Positions 11,578 through 19,240 of a stretch of DNA of 22,891 nucleotides are shown here, piece by piece. The notes below the pieces were generated by a model. It saw only the letters and a program-made list of their open reading frames with translations. It was not told the DNA's origin and made no database searches. Made by a program: the position numbers and the translations under genes. Origin of the DNA: a virus; the IMG/VR virus record IMGVR_UViG_3300023109_000151, positions 1 to 22,891 of that record; one strand, written 5' to 3'. Positions within the stretch are counted from its first letter, which is position 1, and the number at the start of each line of letters is the position of its first letter.

Positions 11578-11861
11578 TAAGATTCTCCTTCATCTTCAAA
11601 TAATTCTAGTTGTTTACTTTTAATCTTACTTAAATAAGTTTTGGTAAGTATATCCCCCGCCTTGTCTAGAAGGTGAGCAGCCATATCTACAAATTCGGGT
11701 CTTAAAGCTAATCCCTTTTTAGTAGGGAACCAGTTACCCGTATCTCCGTCTCTCATATACTCTCTTATATGAATATACTCTTGACCTCTAAATTCGTTTA
11801 TAGTTATTTTTATAGCTTTATCTTCTGTTATATAACCTACAAAACCTAAATCAATTTCCAT
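11577..11861 (-). CDS. PC4-like (transcriptional coactivator p15) ssDNA-binding protein
   Basis: This 94-residue protein matches the PC4 domain pattern. The strand pattern INEFRGQEYIHIREYM, then GNWFPTKKGLALRPEFVDMAAHLL, corresponds to the VxIREWY...WxPgKKGIsLsxexW core of the family, followed by the C-terminal helix. PC4/Sub1 proteins bind ssDNA and melted promoters as dimers, and phage members are thought to help replication or transcription. An acidic C-terminal tail (LELFEDEGES) follows the domain and may recruit partners, as SSB tails do. The ATG at 11861 overlaps the GT4 stop, and the 3' end overlaps the HTH gene. It is the first gene of the DNA-binding block. Confidence 0.78.
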   Translation of the reverse strand: MEIDLGFVGYITEDKAIKITINEFRGQEYIHIREYMRDGDTGNWFPTKKGLALRPEFVDMAAHLLDKAGDILTKTYLSKIKSKQLELFEDEGES

Positions 11862-12984
11862 GAACTCTTTTTATCCTTGGATAATCATGTATCTTTTTAA
11901 GAGCATGATTATACATAATTCCTGCTTCTTCCCAGTTTTTTATTTTACTACTTTTAGGAATAGCACGTTTCTTCGTATCGTATAACATTTTCATTTTAGA
12001 TATCAAGTCTTGAACTTCTGGTTCTACTAACCAAGTATGAGAGCCCATTAAGTTAAAGCTATCTCCTGGTTTGCCTGCAAAAATATTATTAATGTCTACG
12101 ATTTTTTGAGAAGACTTTATTTTGTAATCTGTAACAAATTCATCAGTACAGCCTCCTCCAGTAACTAAAGGAATAGTCCCACAAGCTATTGCTTCTTGAA
12201 CAGGCATTCCAAAACCCTCTCCTCTATAAGGATGAACTAGTACGTCCACACTTCTATATAAATCTGCCATATCTTTTTCTGAATAAGGATCATCTATATA
12301 AGTTATTTTAGCTAAGTTATTAGTGTACTGTAGTTTAATTAATTGTTCTTGTAAGGCTGTTTTTCCATAAACTTGAGGGGTGTCTTTTACTATAAGCTCT
12401 ACGTTATCTTCTTTTTTAAATGTATTAGCCCACGCTTGTAGTAATATATCAAAACCTTTTCTATATTGATCACATCCTACAAATAAGAAAGTATATTTAT
12501 CTCTTTTAGGAGTATCTCTGTCTACATAAAAAATACTTGGATCATACCCTATAGGGATACAAAAAAGCCTTTCTGGGTTAATACCGCCTTCTTGATATAC
12601 TGCACCTGTCCAGCGAGTAAAAGTAATAAGAGCATCTGCAAAAGTTTCAAATTTGTATTGCCACTCAAAAGGCACTTTTGTAAACTCCCAAGGCTGTATG
12701 TATACTACTTTTGTATCATTAGAATGAGGCCATCTCCATATAGGAGGATAACTATGCCTTATTTGTATATCAGGAACTACAGCAGTCTCCTCTTTAGGAA
12801 GTAAATTTTCTAAGTTTTGTAATGTTTCTTGGCTAAGTTTAGCCTCTGAAGTAAAACTATCTATAGGAGAAATAACTACATTGTTATACTTAGATAATTC
12901 AATAGCTAAGTACCTATTTACAATAGACAAAGAGTGGTTATCATAAAATTTACCTATAATTTCTAAATTCATATTATTTTGCAT
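11851..12984 (-). CDS. GT-B glycosyltransferase, family 4-like
   Basis: This 377-residue protein has the C-terminal signature of family 4 glycosyltransferases: LFVGCDQYRKGFDILLQAW (about 167-185), a nucleotide-binding domain start, and the E-x7-E motif with Glu256 and Glu264 in GEGFGMPVQEAIACGT. This retaining GT-B enzyme would transfer a sugar from a nucleotide donor to a growing glycan. The start is ATG 12984; a second in-frame ATG at 12972 is an alternative, and neither has a good Shine-Dalgarno. It is the last gene of the glycan island in transcription order, and its end overlaps the PC4-like gene by 11 nt. Donor and acceptor cannot be inferred. Confidence 0.87.
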   Translation of the reverse strand: MQNNMNLEIIGKFYDNHSLSIVNRYLAIELSKYNNVVISPIDSFTSEAKLSQETLQNLENLLPKEETAVVPDIQIRHSYPPIWRWPHSNDTKVVYIQPWEFTKVPFEWQYKFETFADALITFTRWTGAVYQEGGINPERLFCIPIGYDPSIFYVDRDTPKRDKYTFLFVGCDQYRKGFDILLQAWANTFKKEDNVELIVKDTPQVYGKTALQEQLIKLQYTNNLAKITYIDDPYSEKDMADLYRSVDVLVHPYRGEGFGMPVQEAIACGTIPLVTGGGCTDEFVTDYKIKSSQKIVDINNIFAGKPGDSFNLMGSHTWLVEPEVQDLISKMKMLYDTKKRAIPKSSKIKNWEEAGIMYNHALKKIHDYPRIKRVHGN

Positions 12985-13795
12985 ACATAATCACCGCTTG
13001 TTCTTTACAATAGTTTAGTAGGTCTTTTTCTTTAATTTTTAATAGAGACTCCCATTGAGGGCCCATATTGCTAGTTTTAAAGTTTTTTAATTGTGTGTAG
13101 TTGTTAATATCTACTTTAGCTTGTATATCATAAAACGGGTCTTGTTTACTCTCAATACTGTGTCCAAAGTTATTAATTTTTAAATCTAATTCATTTTCTG
13201 GTCTACAGAAGCTCCAATGTAATATCGACAAAGGCGATTGAATTCTTTTTTGATTATTAGTCCATCTACAATAATTAAATGTATTATGTTTTAAAGTAGT
13301 AAAACCTTGAACTTCATTATTAGGAATACTCTTTCTATCCTCTTTTGATATCACTAGTATTTCACCGTCCCCAACTCTTTTATAAGGCAAAACCCAATAA
13401 AACATTAAGTCTACATCATAATTCTCTACTATAGGACAAAACTTATTAAAAAAGTCATCTGCATTTATTAGTATTTCATCAGCATCAAAAGAAAAAATCC
13501 AGTCGTTAGAACATTGCTCTTTTAAAAAGTTTCTTTCATAGTTATCATTTTCAATAGGCACAGCGCTTCTATGAAAGTTTCCTTCTACTACTTCTATTTT
13601 ATTATCACCATCAATACTACTTAGCTCTTTCCATAACTTATCTTCATCAAAAGAAAACTTATTACCGCTCCAAGATATTCTATCTTTATCTAATCCTAAT
13701 ATTATTTCATCTACATAGTTATAATAACTTTTTATAGAACTTACTAAATAACTAGCATCGTAAGATATTAGACTGATTACACTTTTTTTACGCAT
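12974..13795 (-). CDS. GT-A glycosyltransferase, family 2-like
   Basis: This 273-residue protein starts at ATG 13795 (MRKKSVISLI); a TTG two codons earlier is rejected. Signs of a GT-A fold are the N-terminal SVISLISYDASYLVSSIKSYYNYVDEIIL segment and a DAD metal-binding motif at 104-106 within WIFSFDADEIL. The order resembles beta-glucosyl or WaaE-like family 2 enzymes, which place a sugar on an LPS or capsule core. The C-terminal half is helical and not diagnostic. The start overlaps the upstream family 2-like gene by 8 nt and the end overlaps the GT4 gene by 11 nt, so it is embedded in one operon. Confidence 0.75.
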   Translation of the reverse strand: MRKKSVISLISYDASYLVSSIKSYYNYVDEIILGLDKDRISWSGNKFSFDEDKLWKELSSIDGDNKIEVVEGNFHRSAVPIENDNYERNFLKEQCSNDWIFSFDADEILINADDFFNKFCPIVENYDVDLMFYWVLPYKRVGDGEILVISKEDRKSIPNNEVQGFTTLKHNTFNYCRWTNNQKRIQSPLSILHWSFCRPENELDLKINNFGHSIESKQDPFYDIQAKVDINNYTQLKNFKTSNMGPQWESLLKIKEKDLLNYCKEQAVIMYAK

Positions 13796-14558
13796 TTTCA
13801 ACTACTCTGTCTACTGTTTCAAATTCTTTTTTGCCTATCCATTTATCCATGAATATTGATCTATTTATAGACCATTTTTCTTGAAGATTCGGATTTTGAG
13901 CTAATAGTCTTTTGTTATCTTTTCCTTCAAAATGAAGTAACGGAATACCCGTTTGATAAATTTTATGGCCAGCGCGGCGGGCAGAAAGACACCAATCCAC
14001 ATCACGATAGTAAGTCCAATAGAACTCAGGATCAAAATTACCAACGGAATTCCTAACAGAAGCTTTGAGGTAAACTCCGCCCATAGTAACCCAGGCAACT
14101 TCTCTGACTTTGTCGTATTGGCCCTCATCGATTTCCAATTCTTGATTTGCTTTTCCATCATAGAGGTTAAGTCCTCCTCCGAAATGTACTGCTTCACCAT
14201 TTTTACTAAATCTCCCACCAGCGTGCTGAATTATATATTTATTTTCCTCAGTTTTTTGAGGATATAAAAGTTTCATTCCAAATATATCAGCTTCTGGATA
14301 TTTAACTACAGTATTTATTAATTCTGTATACCATTTATTTTCTGTATCCTCTTGAAGAGGCAACATATCTGCATGTAATATAATTACATCTCTATGCTTA
14401 TGTTTATTCCATAGATACTGATAAGCCATATCACTGCCTATCTGACCTGTATCTTGCCAAAACTCATATTCAAGCTTCCATCCAAGGGCGGCTTTTAATT
14501 GTTGTATCTCTTGTTCAAATAAATAAGGAACTATAATAATAGGATTAGGAGTTGTCAT
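13788..14558 (-). CDS. Family 2-like glycosyltransferase with a G+C-rich central segment
   Basis: This 256-residue protein has a GT-A arrangement: DVIILHADMLPL (HAD at 62-64, in the DxD position), then VTMGGVYLKASVRNSVG and FYWTYYRDVDWCLSARRAGHKI (about 179-200). The latter matches the FxxxEDxDxxxRxxxAG acceptor-loop pattern of rhamnosyltransferase-type family 2 enzymes. Codons for about residues 115-198 (roughly 13965-14215) are visibly richer in G+C (CGC, GCC, GGC) than either end of the gene and create long shadow frames on both strands, which points to recent recombination inside the gene. The ATG at 14558 overlaps the upstream gene by 14 nt. Confidence 0.78.
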   Translation of the reverse strand: MTTPNPIIIVPYLFEQEIQQLKAALGWKLEYEFWQDTGQIGSDMAYQYLWNKHKHRDVIILHADMLPLQEDTENKWYTELINTVVKYPEADIFGMKLLYPQKTEENKYIIQHAGGRFSKNGEAVHFGGGLNLYDGKANQELEIDEGQYDKVREVAWVTMGGVYLKASVRNSVGNFDPEFYWTYYRDVDWCLSARRAGHKIYQTGIPLLHFEGKDNKRLLAQNPNLQEKWSINRSIFMDKWIGKKEFETVDRVVENA

Positions 14559-15534
14559 TATAAATATCTAACCAATTTTTAAATTCGTCTAATACGCTCT
14601 CAGCGCTATGAGTTTTAGTACAAGCAAAACTAGTACTAGTATGGGGGCAATGTCTAGGCCAAAAAGTAAAGTTAGCTGTTGGATTGCCAGGCTCTGTGTT
14701 AGTATCGGCATCTTTACTTAGTTTAGGAACTACACACTTAAAATCTCCACAATGATTATTAGTAGACGGTTTTATAGTTTTATGATATCCATCAGAATAA
14801 AACTCAGGACTATCGTACTCTGTAGGAAACACACTAGGAATACTAATAGTATTTACGTCCATAGCTGCAGAAGCATGCACTAAAGATCCTAAAGGAGATA
14901 TAAATAAGTTTTGACGCTTTAATATCTGTAAAGATTGATATAAATTAAAATTTCCACACTCTATGCCTAAAAAAGATAGCTCATGTTCTATATTTTTATT
15001 AGTCAGTATCTCTCTTATGCCTTGTATTATATCTAATCTCATTGTTTCTGACTGTAATTTTCTATTCCAGTCTAAAGGGCCTGACATACCTATTCTTAAT
15101 ATTTTATCATCAGGCTTAACAGAGTCTATGTTTAGTATGGTGTTACCGTCTAAAAACTGATCTTCGGTAATGTATTCTTTTATAGGTAAATTAGCACTCT
15201 TAGAAATTCCTAAATCTGAGAACCAACGCCAGTGTAAAAACATTTTATCTACTTTTTTAAACTGATCTTCGCTTTTATTTAAGTTTACGTTTTTTACTTG
15301 ACCTCTATTATCAAATTCTATTAATCCTATAGAATCTAACCAAGGCTGTTTACTAATAACTTCTAAAACTTCTGATATACCACTAGGTTGCTCATGAGTA
15401 GTAAGCATAAAATTACTTCTTAAACAATAACTTACTAAATGATCAGGGTTGTTTTCTTTATATCTTCTAGCAGCATTTATGCCTAGAATTACGTCTCCGA
15501 ATGCTTGTGTATTTGCAAATAGTACATGAGTCAT
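14545..15534 (-). CDS. Family 9-like (heptosyltransferase-type) glycosyltransferase
   Basis: This 329-residue protein opens with VLFANTQAFGDVILGINAARR, which matches the xxxxLGDxxxxxP start of family 9 heptosyltransferases. Late in the protein, FISPLGSLVHASAAMDVNTISI matches their donor-binding TGxxHxAAAxGxPxxxL segment. Several cysteines (HCGDFKC and RHCPHTSTSFAC) cluster in the C-terminal part, where family 9 proteins often carry a Cys pair. In bacteria this family adds heptose to the LPS core, so the gene suggests LPS-type glycan editing or synthesis. The start is ATG 15534, overlapping the epimerase stop (ATGA). It is moderately diverged; family membership rests on the two glycine-rich segments. 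Confidence 0.68.
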   Translation of the reverse strand: MTHVLFANTQAFGDVILGINAARRYKENNPDHLVSYCLRSNFMLTTHEQPSGISEVLEVISKQPWLDSIGLIEFDNRGQVKNVNLNKSEDQFKKVDKMFLHWRWFSDLGISKSANLPIKEYITEDQFLDGNTILNIDSVKPDDKILRIGMSGPLDWNRKLQSETMRLDIIQGIREILTNKNIEHELSFLGIECGNFNLYQSLQILKRQNLFISPLGSLVHASAAMDVNTISIPSVFPTEYDSPEFYSDGYHKTIKPSTNNHCGDFKCVVPKLSKDADTNTEPGNPTANFTFWPRHCPHTSTSFACTKTHSAESVLDEFKNWLDIYNDNS

Positions 15535-16562
15535 TTATTAAATAGCCTATCTGTCCATGTTTTAGGTGTTTTATCATTTATTATTTCTAAATCTATATGA
15601 TAATCAAAGTCTCTAGTAGTTTGGTCTCTCATCCACACCACAGTATCTCTTATAGTTTCTTCAATATCTGTGTCTGCTTTATAGTTTAGTACATCCTCTG
15701 CCTTATCAGTAGATACCCAAGCATTTTTTACTTCTCTAGGTCTTTCAGGGACAAAGTTTATTTCTGCAGTTTTGTTAAAATATTTAGCTACTTTATTTGC
15801 TAGTGCTGCTATAGAAGTTTCGGTTCCATGGCTAGGACCTATATTAAATACTTCTTTGCTTTCTATTTTATCTCTTTTATTATAAACTGTTACAAAAGCT
15901 TCTACACAATCTTTTACATGAGAAAAAGATCTTTTTTGTGTTCCGTCACCATAAATATATACAGGTTTATCTTTAGATATTAGGTTTGCAAAAATACTCA
16001 TAACGTTTCTAAAAGGATCACTATAGCACTGATGAGGGCCACACACATTATGAGGAACCATATGAAATACTTTTATTCCATGAATGTCACTCATTAAATT
16101 TAAATGCTGCTCTGCGTGTAATTTAGCTAAGCCATAAGGATCTACAGGATTAGGAGTATGATCTTCTTGAAAAGGAGGATTTCCTTCGCCATATCTTGCC
16201 ATAGAAGTGGTATTTATAAACATAGGTACATTATTACTTACAGAAGCACTACACACAGAAGCTGTTCCTGCATATATGTTCTCAACTATTTTTTTAGGAG
16301 AAAAAACACTTAAGCCTTCGTGTGCTAAAGCAGCACAGTGTATTACAAGCACAGGAGAGTAAATACCCATTACATTAGACAGCTCTTTAGTATCTAGTAT
16401 GTCTTGTTCATAATAAAAAAAGTTTTTATTATCAGGCATATTGGTTATATAACCACCTATTAAAGAGTCTATACCTATTACTCTGTATCCTAACTCTAAA
16501 TACTTATAACATAGATGACTACCTATTAAGCCTGCAGATCCTGTAATTACAACTGATTCCAT
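15531..16562 (-). CDS. NAD-dependent sugar epimerase/dehydratase (extended SDR)
   Basis: This 343-residue protein has the extended short-chain dehydrogenase signature. The nucleotide-binding TGSAGLIG has Gly8, Gly11 and Gly14, the family acidic residue is in VIGIDSL, and the catalytic Tyr143-x3-Lys147 is in DPYGLAK, with the Ser/Thr-rich strand INTTSMARYG before it. The substrate half includes VPHNVCGPHQCYSDPFRNVM and FVPERPREVKNAWVSTDKA, typical of UDP-glucose/UDP-GlcNAc 4-epimerases and related enzymes. It would make a nucleotide sugar donor in the cytoplasm for the neighbouring transferases. The exact reaction (epimerase or dehydratase) cannot be fixed from motifs. The ATG at 16562 overlaps the upstream gene by 16 nt. 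Confidence 0.9.
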   Translation of the reverse strand: MESVVITGSAGLIGSHLCYKYLELGYRVIGIDSLIGGYITNMPDNKNFFYYEQDILDTKELSNVMGIYSPVLVIHCAALAHEGLSVFSPKKIVENIYAGTASVCSASVSNNVPMFINTTSMARYGEGNPPFQEDHTPNPVDPYGLAKLHAEQHLNLMSDIHGIKVFHMVPHNVCGPHQCYSDPFRNVMSIFANLISKDKPVYIYGDGTQKRSFSHVKDCVEAFVTVYNKRDKIESKEVFNIGPSHGTETSIAALANKVAKYFNKTAEINFVPERPREVKNAWVSTDKAEDVLNYKADTDIEETIRDTVVWMRDQTTRDFDYHIDLEIINDKTPKTWTDRLFNK

Positions 16563-17320
16563 ACGTCATTCCAATCTACTAAGGGGGTTACACAATTATC
16601 TTGTAGGTGCGTAGCAGTGCCAGGCAAAGGACAAACAGCTACGTTCTGTCTAAAAGCTTTCCAGGTCCAAGAGTCGTCTGAAAACAAACCTGCTTGAAGT
16701 ATAGAAAACTTAAAAGGTAAGAATGTTTTTCCTTTTGCGGCTAAAGTTAAAGTAGCGCTGCTAACTGTTTTTAAATGGCAGTCAGGTCCTACTAGTACTT
16801 CTACTGTTCTGTCTTTATCAAAATACCTATCTGGATAATCATAAGGCAAATAAAAACCTTCATACCCTGCTTTAAAAACATTTTTCATAGTTTTTATGGC
16901 AGTTTTAGTATGAAGGTAATCGTCTTCGCATAAATATATTAGCTCTTCAGTATTTGCTTCTGCTATTTCTATTAAATTTTCCATTAATGGAATACAAGTA
17001 TTTATTGTAACAGGATGATACTGAGGATAAGGATGCTCCCCAAACGGAGGTACTTCAGTTCTGTTAGGTATATCTTTTATTTCTAATTTAGTAGGTATAG
17101 AGCAGGTTTCTCGCATCCAAGATTTAGTTTCTTCAGTAACTGTATCTGCTAATACTATAATCTTATCGTCCCAGCCTTCTAAATCTTGTTGTAAAGAAAG
17201 CCAGCATTTTCTAAAGATTTCATCTTTCTTTTTTCCATTCCATCTAGCTTTATCTTGTGAGCCGTCTGATATACTTCCTGGAGACTTATTAGCTTCTGAA
17301 GCTCTATATATTATTATCAT
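16547..17320 (-). CDS. Putative GT-A-like glycosyltransferase with EDD motif
   Basis: This 257-residue protein has a GT-A-like plan: an N-terminal MIIIYRASEA strand, WDDKIIVLADTVTEET as the second strand, and LIYLCEDDYLHTKTAI with an acidic EDD (132-134) in the place of the DxD metal site. A later DDSWTWKAFRQN supplies another acidic patch. I do not recognise a specific family; it differs from the DAD-type transferases nearby. Its setting between an acyltransferase and a sugar epimerase supports a glycan role. The ATG at 17320 overlaps the acyltransferase stop (ATGA). The activity is an inference from fold and context. Confidence 0.6.
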   Translation of the reverse strand: MIIIYRASEANKSPGSISDGSQDKARWNGKKKDEIFRKCWLSLQQDLEGWDDKIIVLADTVTEETKSWMRETCSIPTKLEIKDIPNRTEVPPFGEHPYPQYHPVTINTCIPLMENLIEIAEANTEELIYLCEDDYLHTKTAIKTMKNVFKAGYEGFYLPYDYPDRYFDKDRTVEVLVGPDCHLKTVSSATLTLAAKGKTFLPFKFSILQAGLFSDDSWTWKAFRQNVAVCPLPGTATHLQDNCVTPLVDWNDVWNQL

Positions 17321-17913
17321 TTTGTTACTTTTTTTCTTGAGAAATTTCTATATTCATCAATAATACTTATAATATAAGGATCTAAAGGTTCTATACCTTC
17401 TCTTACAAATTTTTCTATTTCATCTTTTTGATTATTATTAAAGTTATTTTTATAAATAGAAGAACGATATACTCCTCTTGTTTTAGAAGGATTACCAAAC
17501 ACTTTAGAGAAAGGTTTTACATCTTTTATTATGGGCGAAAATGTTCCTATAAAAGAATGACTACCTACTGTAGAGTAATTCTGTACATGAGCATTATACT
17601 CTATATAAACATTATTTTGAATAACACTATGAAAACCTAAGTAACAACAACCTGTTATAGTATTATTATTGCCTATCAAAGTATCACTATTAATAGTAGT
17701 ACTTGGGCCTATATAATTGCCACTTCCTATAACAGTATTCTCTCTGTAACCAGTTGCGCAGTTAATAACACATGCTGAAAGTATGGTATTGTTTTTACCT
17801 AGAGATATTCCATATTTATCATCTTTTACTAAAAACACCACTGAAGGGTCAATAGTATTAGAAGAATCTATAGAAAATTCTATAATAGCTTTGGAGGCAG
17901 AGTATACTTTCAT
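17317..17913 (-). CDS. Left-handed beta-helix acyltransferase-like protein
   Basis: This protein of about 198 residues consists mostly of hexapeptide repeats of the [LIV]-G-x4 kind (TVIGSGNYIGPSTTI, TLIGNNNTITGC, STVGSHSFIGTFSPI), ending in KVFGNPSKTRGVYR. That is the usual end of the coil in NeuD/PglD/LpxA-type O- and N-acyltransferases (the xGNPAK motif). It would acetylate or acylate a sugar. I place the start at ATG 17913; the longer frame from GTG 17940 begins inside the last hairpin of the tmRNA coding piece. There is no evident Shine-Dalgarno. It is the first gene of the glycan island and lies directly after the tmRNA on the same strand. Confidence 0.75.
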   Translation of the reverse strand: MKVYSASKAIIEFSIDSSNTIDPSVVFLVKDDKYGISLGKNNTILSACVINCATGYRENTVIGSGNYIGPSTTINSDTLIGNNNTITGCCYLGFHSVIQNNVYIEYNAHVQNYSTVGSHSFIGTFSPIIKDVKPFSKVFGNPSKTRGVYRSSIYKNNFNNNQKDEIEKFVREGIEPLDPYIISIIDEYRNFSRKKVTK

Positions 17914-17976
17914 AGTGCTATTCAAAATAATGAGTGTCACTTTTTCTGTTGCTAGGCAAGTGACCAGCCCCCTTAA

Positions 17977-18021
17977 TCATGCAGCTAGTGCGTAATTAGA
18001 TGGTGCAAAGTTATCGTTTGC
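17977..18021 (-). other. tmRNA proteolysis-tag reading frame
   Basis: From the resume codon GCA (18021-18019) the frame reads ANDNFAPSNYALAA and then TGA, 14 residues. The AND- start and -ALAA end are the standard tmRNA tag: the C-terminal LAA is read by ClpXP and related proteases, and the AND part by the SspB adaptor in some bacteria. The AND-N-F start resembles the alphaproteobacterial (Caulobacter-type) tag. The A four bases before the resume codon, important in E. coli tmRNA, is present. Confidence 0.95.
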
Positions 18022-18105
18022 GTTTGTAGTTTTTGGCTGAATATCGTAGGCCAACACGGTAATCTACTCTCATCTCTACACACCTGTCGATCCTATATCA
18101 GCCCC

Positions 18106-18199
18106 ATCATAAAGACATTATCATAAATGATACTATAGTATTAGTAAACCCTATTTTACGTCGATTACTAATACTATGATGTTAGTTAAAATGTCCTTA
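18106..18199 (-). other. Intervening segment of the permuted pre-tmRNA
   Basis: This 94-nt spacer joins the CCA end of the acceptor piece to the first G of the coding piece and would be cut out during maturation. It folds back on itself. TAAGGACATT (18199-18190) pairs with AATGTCTTTA (18119-18110, one G-U), extending the acceptor stem. Inside it, a perfect 13-bp stem (18177-18165 with 18147-18135) closes a 17-nt loop. This hairpin presents the two tRNA-like ends together for processing, probably by RNase P and 3' nucleases. Confidence 0.85.
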
Positions 18200-18296
18200 T
18201 GGTGGAGCTGTCGGGTACCGCCCCCGAGTCCAGTATGTATGTTGAATTGTATCAACGATTACAAAAAAGAGGTTTAAAACGATAGATGTATCGAAG

Positions 18297-18416
18297 TTAG
18301 TGACCTCTTAATTCCTTATTTATTTTTTGTCTTATTTTCTTATTAGATAGTTGTTTTAGTTTCTTTTTCCATGCTTTAGACAGTGCATGCGGTATTACTC
18401 CGTTTTTAGGATTCAT
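18297..18416 (-). CDS. 39-residue basic small protein
   Basis: A perfect Shine-Dalgarno, AGGAGG (18428-18423), sits 6 nt before ATG 18416, and the frame runs 39 codons to TAA. The product is very basic (KAWKKKLKQLSNKKIRQKI), which would suit RNA or ribosome binding. Its last codons overlap the first stem of the tmRNA acceptor piece, so its translation and tmRNA folding or processing would affect each other. No family is recognised. The consensus ribosome site and its place between bS21 and tmRNA argue that it is real. Confidence 0.65.
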   Translation of the reverse strand: MNPKNGVIPHALSKAWKKKLKQLSNKKIRQKINKELRGH

Positions 18417-18422
18417 TTGTAT

Positions 18423-18428
18423 CCTCCT
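18423..18428 (-). promoter_or_regulatory. Consensus Shine-Dalgarno (AGGAGG) of the 39-residue ORF
   Basis: The six bases match the anti-Shine-Dalgarno complement exactly, 6 nt from the ATG. They overlap the stop of the preceding 55-residue ORF (TATAGGAGG), which favours reinitiation. Confidence 0.75.
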
Positions 18429-18594
18429 ATAAAGAAACTATACTAGTACTTCCTTTTTCCTTATTAATAATCTTACTATTATAATTTCTAAGCCTATTAA
18501 ACCGGCTAGGCCGTCTATAAGGTGCAAACTTTAAAGGATTATTATGGAGTTTTTCTACAGCTTCATTGATAATTTTATCTTTTTCAGTATTCAT
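18427..18594 (-). CDS. 55-residue basic small protein
   Basis: ATG 18594 to TAG, 55 codons. The protein has an N-terminal helix (KDKIINEAVEKLHNN) and then a basic, Arg/Asn/Tyr-rich middle (FAPYRRPSRFNRLRNYNSK). No family is recognised; the composition suggests nucleic-acid binding. An AGAGAG element 7 nt upstream may act as the ribosome site. It is the first gene behind the promoter at 18624-18652, and its stop overlaps the Shine-Dalgarno of the next small ORF, so the two are coupled and lead directly into the tmRNA. Confidence 0.62.
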   Translation of the reverse strand: MNTEKDKIINEAVEKLHNNPLKFAPYRRPSRFNRLRNYNSKIINKEKGSTSIVSL

Positions 18595-18665: not shown

Positions 18666-18932
18666 TTAAGATTTGGAGTTTGGTGTATTTTTTTGCTTCT
18701 TTGTGTAGCCTGCTTTTCTTTCTAACTTTTGCATAAGAGCTTGTCTTTTAGCTTCTGCTTTTCTGTACCTAGCTTTACCTGCTTTTTTAGCTTCTCTAAG
18801 TTTTTCAGATTTAGAAACATAGTAACTTTGTCTTTTAGCATCTATATAGAACCCATCGGCATTTAGTTTTCTCATCATAATTTTATATGCTTTAGAGACA
18901 TCATTATTATATTTTTTTATACTTATTTTCAT
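18666..18932 (-). CDS. rpsU: Ribosomal protein bS21, phage-encoded
   Basis: This 88-residue protein matches bS21 in length, charge and layout. The N-terminal strand and helix (ISIKKYNNDVSKAYKIMMRKLNADGF) align with the ...EPFDVALRRFKRSCEKAG part of E. coli S21. RQSYYVSKSEKLREAKKAG aligns with RRREFYEKPTTERKRAKA, and a long Lys/Arg helix follows. bS21 sits near the 3' end of 16S rRNA, next to the anti-Shine-Dalgarno, and influences mRNA selection. Viral bS21 genes are known, including in phages of SAR11, where incorporation into host ribosomes is proposed. I choose ATG 18932, which overlaps the upstream stop (TAATG) with AAAGG before it; a TTG ten codons earlier is less likely. Confidence 0.88.
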   Translation of the reverse strand: MKISIKKYNNDVSKAYKIMMRKLNADGFYIDAKRQSYYVSKSEKLREAKKAGKARYRKAEAKRQALMQKLERKAGYTKKQKNTPNSKS

Positions 18933-19240
18933 TAATTTACCTTTATATAGTTTTGTATCCAAGAAGATAAGTGACCTGCAGAATATTTACCTATAAGTTT
19001 GGATATAACTCCATTATTTTTAGTTACCACAAACATAGGTGTTGTAATATTTTTTGAGAGGTCTGCACTGTTTACACTTTCTGTATTAATTCCTAGATCT
19101 TGCAGTGTGAGCAGTTCTCGTTGCACATAGGTTTTATTAAATTTGTTAAAATATCCTGTAACCTTCTTCAACTTATTTCTCCTATTAGTCTGACACTTTT
19201 TAAGAGTAGACATATTTTGATTTAATTTTATTCTTGCCAT
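18932..19240 (-). CDS. Hypothetical protein upstream of bS21
   Basis: This is a 102-residue protein of unknown family, the first gene of the leftward transcript. The N-terminal 40 residues are basic (RRNKLKKVTGYFNKFNK). The C-terminal half, with TPMFVVTKNNGVISKLIGKYSAGHLSSWI, faintly resembles the cis-Pro strand and last helix of thioredoxin-like folds, but there is no CxxC motif, so I do not assign that function. The ATG at 19240 lies about 12 nt after the predicted start of transcription with no Shine-Dalgarno. Its stop overlaps the bS21 start. Confidence 0.65.
   Translation of the reverse strand: MARIKLNQNMSTLKKCQTNRRNKLKKVTGYFNKFNKTYVQRELLTLQDLGINTESVNSADLSKNITTPMFVVTKNNGVISKLIGKYSAGHLSSWIQNYIKVN

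Follow-up and report, generated by a model that had tools for sequence, protein, structure and literature searches.

A circularly permuted, two-piece tmRNA gene kept behind a bS21 homologue in a phage lineage

The minus strand of the window (the whole stretch of DNA analyzed here, a 22,891-base IMG/VR virus record) carries, from 18262 to about 17937, a circularly permuted, two-piece tmRNA gene of the alphaproteobacterial type. ARAGORN called a permuted tmRNA (tmRNA*) at 17886-18293 on the minus strand with the tag ANDNFAPSNYALAA, and a cmscan search of Rfam placed two models on the same strand, RF04321 (tmRNA_permuted) at 17977-18262 with 121.5 bits (E 1.2e-23, cut-off 47) and RF01849 (alpha_tmRNA) at 17933-18315 with 110 bits (E 1.4e-29, cut-off 50). 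The acceptor piece precedes the coding piece on one strand and both models exceed their curated cut-offs. A preliminary description had placed a phage-borne tmRNA of this kind here and had proposed an Infernal search of Rfam as the check; the strand and coordinates proved right, with both models far over their cut-offs. We consider it probable that the gene provides a working two-piece tmRNA which recycles ribosomes stalled in infection with the help of host SmpB and proteases, and which acts beside a phage copy of ribosomal protein bS21.

The features of the gene and its surroundings are collected in Table 1. The acceptor piece begins with GUAAUC at 18262 and ends with the encoded CCA at 18200, although its true 5' end may lie upstream of 18262; it contains the 5' strand of P2, the T-arm, the sequence CAGCTCC, a discriminator A and the CCA, and a 5-bp hairpin is possible within it. 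The tag itself occupies 18021-17980 and its stop 17979-17977, and near the 3' end of the coding piece the motif GCAACAGAA aligns to RF01849.

Table 1. Positions of the tmRNA and neighboring features in the window
Feature	Position	Strand	Basis or remark
tmRNA acceptor piece (tRNA-like 3' part)	18200-18262	minus	RF04321 model positions 1 onward; in 7 of 7 aligned sequences
T-arm, 5-bp stem and 7-nt loop GGCGGTA	18211-18227	minus	covariation, pairing
Acceptor stem 3' strand CAGCTCC	18204-18210	minus	7 bp with 18105-18099, including G3-U70
Intervening spacer, 94 nt	18106-18199	minus	predicted to be removed on processing
tmRNA coding (mRNA-like) piece, starts GGGGCTG at 18105	17937-18105	minus	ARAGORN, Rfam; 3' end approximate
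P2 3' strand GATTAC	18059-18064	minus	pairs with 18262-18257
Further P2 pairs	18240-18236 with 18082-18078; 18233-18231 with 18086-18084	minus	letters checked
Tag reading frame ANDNFAPSNYALAA and stop TGA	17977-18021	minus	ARAGORN; peptide the same in 7 of 7
Ribosomal protein bS21 homologue, 88 aa from ATG 18932	18666-18932	minus	PF01165
55-aa ORF between bS21 and tmRNA	18427-18594	minus	present in all six close relatives, at 43% identity in L139
39-aa very basic ORF between bS21 and tmRNA	18297-18416	minus	in 6 of 6 close relatives
102-aa ORF at the head of the leftward genes	18932-19240	minus	in 6 close relatives; 40% identity in L068
257-aa gene u257, which follows the tmRNA in most lineage members	16547-17320	minus	gene-order anchor
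Hairpin and T-run directly before the acceptor piece	18263-18308	minus	-8.5 kcal/mol, six T
Glycosyltransferase	11851-12984	minus	PF00534

Close relatives were obtained from a scan of IMG/VR anchored on the DNA polymerase, which gave six contigs with a tmRNA in three, and from one anchored on the downstream hexapeptide gene, which recovered those three tmRNA-bearing contigs and three others, with a tmRNA in all six. RF04321 scores 112-127 bits in these six tmRNA-bearing relatives, and ARAGORN missed the tmRNA of one of them, L137. The window and the six relatives were aligned (seven sequences). The 7-bp acceptor stem with its G3-U70 pair, as described beforehand, is present together with the CCA; all seven pairs form and are invariant in the seven sequences, so that covariation in this alignment is uninformative on that stem. 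P2 had been drawn as a single 7-bp helix, which needs correction, since the supported pairs fall into three segments, GUAAUC/GAUUAC (6), AUACA/UGUGU (5) and CUG/CAG (3), each of which has one pair changed on both sides among the aligned sequences; one pair of P2b is broken (A-A) in L136 and L138. Several of the P2 pairs drawn in RF01849 do not form here, and part of the stretch assigned to P2 in that model may form a local hairpin instead. In the T-stem, three of the five pairs change on both sides and 100% of the alignment cells are paired. The spacer is exactly 94 nt long (18199-18106) and self-complementary, both as previously described, with an inner stem and, at its base, an 11-bp stem that pairs 18200-18190 with 18119-18109 and begins with the last A of the CCA; four pairs of the base stem change on both sides, with 93.5% of cells paired.

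Taken over the whole structure, 96.4% of cells in the alignment are paired against a mean of 88.4% in shuffled alignments, 12 pairs change on both sides against a mean of 6.6, and the covariation score is 0.263 against 0.116 (sd 0.017), none of these three values being reached in 500 shuffles; further pair types number 19 against 15.5, a value reached by 5 of the 500. Of the 12 pairs with change on both sides, three belong to P2, three to the T-stem, four to the base of the spacer stem and two to an optional hairpin. The shuffles leave relatedness in the data. Slid versions of the structure, a control which removes relatedness but in which the structure is still drawn from one of the aligned sequences, pair in 34-48% of cells. 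All seven sequences encode the same tag peptide, with three synonymous codon changes in L139 and with a TAA stop replacing TGA in L136, L138 and L139, and the spacer varies from 30 to 111 nt in length and is 20-49% identical to that of the window, except in L134 (99%). Compensatory change, a tag kept through synonymous changes and a variable spacer are together what would be expected of a functional RNA whose spacer is discarded, and this comparison of sequences supports the view that the phage tmRNA is conserved and under selection.

The acceptor stem was assessed in a larger set of 136 distinct phage permuted tmRNAs, which excludes 28 cellular loci (L140-L166 and L183). Bases 66-68 and 5-7 had been left free by the search pattern, and they pair with each other in 97.8% of cells, compared to 71.8% in shuffled sets (maximum 76.2%). 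All seven positions of the stem are paired in 133 of the 136 sequences and only four in the other three. The pattern fixed GGGG and CTCC, so that G3-U70 is built into this set and is no evidence there. The T-arm is 100% paired in the 136 sequences, a set retrieved in large part with a T-arm pattern, and their shortest spacer, 5 nt, is the floor of the pattern itself. In a regional alignment, three loci had a T-arm that deviates from the search pattern.

The tag frame has a resume alanine, a stop and a hydrophobic end of the LAA type. Since the tag keeps the ANDNF start and the LAA end found in cellular tags, its products would be expected at the same host proteases, and the idea in the preliminary description that the phage RNA competes with the host tag is weakened. 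A comparison with host tags, also suggested there, gave these shared ends but no tag identical to ANDNFAPSNYALAA among 19 cellular tmRNAs, a set picked by the tag core. Among 68 distinct tags, taken from loci outside the genome_contigs scan for the tag core and including at most two cellular loci (L166 and L183), 52 end in LAA and 67 in AA. These data bear on whether the RNA is instead a decoy or competitor, which would displace the host tmRNA from SmpB or the ribosome, or whose tag would be handled differently, thereby shielding truncated phage proteins or blocking host quality control. The lack of an identical tag in the 19 cellular tmRNAs would agree with such a role, as would the tag-less phage form of DS6A, which inhibits endogenous tmRNA in E. 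coli according to the available portion of PMC11915505; we nevertheless find a decoy unlikely, given that the tag frame is intact and identical in seven of seven sequences with synonymous change only, and that LAA, the end of 52 of the 68 tags, is what would be expected of a degradation tag. As a separate observation, ARAGORN predicts very long tags of 19 to 31 residues in four viral permuted tmRNAs (L040, L043, L054 and L061), which are possibly misreadings.

The bS21 homologue is the second of the leftward genes, and it ends 372 bases before the ARAGORN start of the tmRNA on the same strand, a neighbor absent from the preliminary description of the tmRNA. With PF01165 (cut-off 27) the window protein scores 26.7 bits as a 98-aa ORF and 23.8 bits in the 88-aa form from the inner ATG. 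All six tmRNA-bearing close relatives, which were scored on slightly longer open frames, are over the cut-off, and one of them, L134, has 88 aa identical to those of the window and scores 28.2 bits on its longer frame. The bS21 of the more distant L068 scores 23.2 bits, below the cut-off. No phage isolate had a sequence match to the window bS21 at E 0.01; with L068 bS21 as the query, only four Melnitz records matched at that threshold, and a comparison with solved structures gave weak bS21 matches only, with unrelated proteins among them. In a seventh near relative, G004, neither bS21 nor a tmRNA occurs within its 40 kb fragment.

Conservation of the gene order was analyzed from u257, an anchor independent of both bS21 and the tmRNA, which has no Pfam or PHROG match and, at E 1e-5, no counterpart among 50,697 phage records. 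It was found at 71 loci, 55 of them (L186-L240) at least 40% identical, and 45 of these 55, those with at least 2.5 kb upstream, were testable. For bS21 an HMM was used, built from an alignment of five bS21 of this lineage and that of Melnitz, all six of which match PF01165 at E<=0.001; tmRNAs were detected by ARAGORN, which overlooked many copies in this analysis, or a sequence signature, and in L208 and L212 by an Rfam match. By the script rule, 42 of the 45 have a same-strand tmRNA no more than 3.5 kb upstream of u257, or 43 with L196, which falls outside the rule because the end of its ARAGORN tmRNA overlaps u257 by 25 nt. A same-strand bS21 upstream was found in 41, and all three genes stand in the order bS21, tmRNA, u257 in 38 by the rule and in 39 with L196, the gap between bS21 and the tmRNA ranging from about 19 to 1990 nt. 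Two long contigs depart from this order, L231 (115,658 bases) and L240 (112,794 bases), in which bS21 is near u257 and the permuted tmRNA is well over 10 kb away, and these are useful for dating the formation or the split of the pair. No bS21 was found in the stretch examined of L202, L203, L211 and L227; L211 has a bS21 relative elsewhere on its contig, upstream of the tmRNA by about 4 kb. RF04321 is over its cut-off in 40 of 50 records searched (48 contigs of the 55, plus L241 and L254 from outside them), including L231 and L240. The order is inherited within one lineage, and counts of contigs are therefore not counts of independent events; when u257 proteins were clustered by single linkage at 60, 80 and 95% identity, 5 of 6, 16 of 20 and 28 of 32 clusters had bS21 and the tmRNA in order in at least one member.

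A tmRNA without benefit to the phage, either a captured host gene or the remnant of an integration site, is a reading that this distribution already disfavors and that we regard as highly improbable. Host tmRNA genes can serve as prophage integration sites, as the accessible text of PMC9004378 states, but here the gene is complete with compensatory changes, its place is kept across a lineage in which identity between u257 proteins falls to about 40%, and there was no integrase-family match among those window proteins that were scanned.

We also tested, and rejected, the idea that phages in general keep bS21 and the tmRNA adjacent. Among 90 of the at least 120 contigs found with the T-arm pattern, a usable bS21 match was present in eight, with that of G048 scoring below the cut-off; one more match was dropped as weak and with an internal stop. 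The two genes are within 1 kb of each other in only three contigs, all of which carry u257 and belong to this lineage. From the opposite direction, 80 bS21 loci, those kept of 115, had a tmRNA by ARAGORN or signature in 29 cases, made up of 28 of the 34 most similar loci and one of the other 46.

The 55-aa and 39-aa ORFs between bS21 and the tmRNA had no PHROG or Pfam match, and neither was found in L068; the 102-aa ORF had no Pfam match. The hairpin that immediately precedes the acceptor piece covers the last part of the 39-aa ORF as well and may be a terminator, an attenuator or a 5' leader of the tmRNA. It is absent from the output of a terminator scan with a loop limit of 8, and its counterpart in L139 has another sequence and length, with -9.9 kcal/mol and four T only. 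Between 17800 and 19400 a promoter scan predicted 12 sites, compared to 8.0 (sd 2.5) in shuffled sequence, and was uninformative. After the tmRNA on the same strand, 11851-17940 of the window is a run of probable sugar genes that holds, besides the glycosyltransferase, an NAD-dependent epimerase and a hexapeptide transferase; four ORFs within it had no Pfam match.

The best matches of the DNA polymerase are 38-40% identical and belong to phages that we take to be T5-like, as we do those matched by the helicase at about 29% identity, and a 231-aa protein is 41% identical to the D5 protein of Vibrio phage Ceto. Together with a u257 that has no match in phage records, these similarities suggest, as far as the records go, an uncultivated lineage related to T5. 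For the tmRNA an alphaproteobacterial gene source is likely from sequence comparison; in addition to the RF01849 match, a slightly degenerate 20-nt core of the tag found 26 genome contigs, and the 19 in which ARAGORN called a permuted tmRNA all have alphaproteobacterial titles, counting Micavibrio, which we presume to be alphaproteobacterial. The preliminary description had pointed to an alphaproteobacterial host or gene source, and it is the source that stands. The host does not follow with it, since the accessible text of PMC9004378 describes Melnitz as having an alphaproteobacterial-type two-piece tmRNA yet infecting a gammaproteobacterium, so that the permuted form points to the gene source more surely than to the host. 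A BLAST search with the coding piece matched one of six chosen genomes, and two of 190 genomes of the class of that genome (the same one included), over 32 bases each.

SmpB was found in none of 52 contigs (0 of 7 and 0 of 45 records), most of which are fragments, so that this is no proof of absence; the control search was positive in 10 of 14 genomes. With these SmpB results, the ends of the tag and the G3-U70 pair, the simplest reading is of an extra tmRNA that would use the SmpB, the synthetase and the proteases of the host. One leftward transcript would carry the 102-aa gene, bS21, the two small ORFs, the tmRNA and then the sugar genes, but a terminator-like hairpin ahead of the acceptor piece would lower read-through from the bS21 side, so that co-transcription is not certain. 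Host tRNA-processing enzymes would cut at the end of the encoded CCA and at GGGG, releasing the spacer, which would stand out atop the acceptor stem as a hairpin and be discarded, and the two pieces would remain joined through the acceptor stem and P2. Through G3-U70, the identity pair for alanine, the host alanyl-tRNA synthetase would charge the RNA with this amino acid. Host SmpB would then bind the charged RNA and bring it into ribosomes stalled on broken mRNA, ANDNFAPSNYALAA would be added, and the product would be sent to host proteases of the ClpXP type. The gain to the phage would be ribosomes kept free while mRNA is degraded in infection, and the phage bS21 made from the same set of genes would bias the initiation of those ribosomes. 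What the sequences show is the gene, its structure, the conservation of the tag and the gene order, and beyond these we infer the transcript, its processing and charging, the use of SmpB, the timing and the benefit. Against this reading are the hairpin ahead of the acceptor piece, the tmRNA lying elsewhere in two of the 45 contigs (L231 and L240), the A-A break in P2b, the score of the window bS21 just below the cut-off and the inactivity in E. coli of ribosomes carrying the HTVC008M bS21 (PMC6375957).

The available portion of PMC6375957 reports that bS21 acts at initiation, that the bS21 of pelagiphage HTVC008M enters E. coli ribosomes and that ribosomes carrying it were inactive in an E. 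coli assay. It is possible, though we are doubtful, that bS21 and the tmRNA form a coupled module for ribosome takeover that selection has held side by side across the lineage, in which case ribosomes with phage bS21 would prefer phage mRNA and the co-expressed tmRNA would keep those ribosomes circulating while host mRNA is destroyed. That the tmRNA or its tagging serves as a sensor, reporting stalled ribosomes in order to time lysis or replication, appears very unlikely. PMC7162821, in the text available, does say that phages use tmRNAs to sense the state of the host and can induce lysis, but no regulatory target was found in the sequence, and at gathering scores the window has no Rfam riboswitch.

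The tmRNA described here is a real, well-conserved and ordinary member of a known RNA family that resides in a phage, and phage two-piece tmRNAs are already known as a kind. The accessible text of PMC9004378 counts 402 tmRNA-encoding genomes among 18,146 from phages; their unique structures number 133, of which 53 are two-piece per ARAGORN, 50 of these 53 being from marine or aquatic samples, and it reports a two-piece tmRNA in Methylophilales phage Melnitz; 79 unique bacteriophage tmRNA sequences are listed in the portion available of PMC11915505. With the alphaproteobacterial permuted tmRNA of RF01849 and RF04321, the window RNA shares the order of the pieces, the acceptor stem, the T-arm, the encoded CCA, P2, the spacer, the ANDN...LAA tag and the GCAACAGAA region, and differs in that the gene is in a phage, that the spacer ranges from 30 to 111 nt in close relatives and that several P2 pairs of the alpha model are absent. 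Melnitz (PMC9004378, as far as available; MZ577097) likewise has an alphaproteobacterial-type two-piece tmRNA and a bS21 in the same genome, but its bS21 (35389-35661) and tmRNA (45984-46436) are about 10 kb apart, whereas here they are neighbors; Melnitz is T4-like and the phage here T5-related, and the glutamine riboswitch reported in the available text for Melnitz has no Rfam riboswitch counterpart here at gathering scores. The Roseobacter and Rhodobacter phages DSS3P8, vB_RpoS-V10 and RcXuper also have a permuted tmRNA (RF04321, 107-112 bits), but in these it lies downstream of several tRNA genes, with GOLLD RNA nearby in two of the three, and none of the three whole records has a bS21 match.

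Phage copies of the same ribosomal protein are described in the accessible parts of PMC6375957 (HTVC008M) and of PMC9723584 (Bacteroidetes phages), in the latter among structural genes, and a genome with both bS21 and a tmRNA, AP-J-162, appears in the text available of PMC11242549. PMC9723584 profiled the genes next to bS21 across 900 phages through protein families (pVOG), and its main text as available nowhere uses the word tmRNA. No published report of bS21-tmRNA adjacency was found among the papers listed, including in the accessible text of PMC7162821, PMC9004378, PMC11242549 and PMC9723584, in a search whose scope left aside most subscription papers and all bioRxiv preprints. This strongly kept bS21 neighborhood, not found described, is somewhat more interesting than the RNA alone. 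In the literature found, the purpose of phage tmRNAs is only proposed, and a tmRNA kept behind a phage ribosomal protein offers a natural pairing for testing joint remodeling of ribosomes and rescue.

The two-piece form is common in viral metagenomes. One T-arm pattern found at least 120 stretches in IMG/VR, and ARAGORN calls a permuted tmRNA in 69 of those listed. The form may go unannotated, as the permuted tmRNAs of three isolate genomes are without a label in their records: vB_RpoS-V10 (L002, 2939-3365), RcXuper (L003, 2942-3364) and DSS3P8 (L004, 2939-3360). In V10 and DSS3P8, a GOLLD RNA ends about 160-190 bases upstream of the permuted tmRNA.
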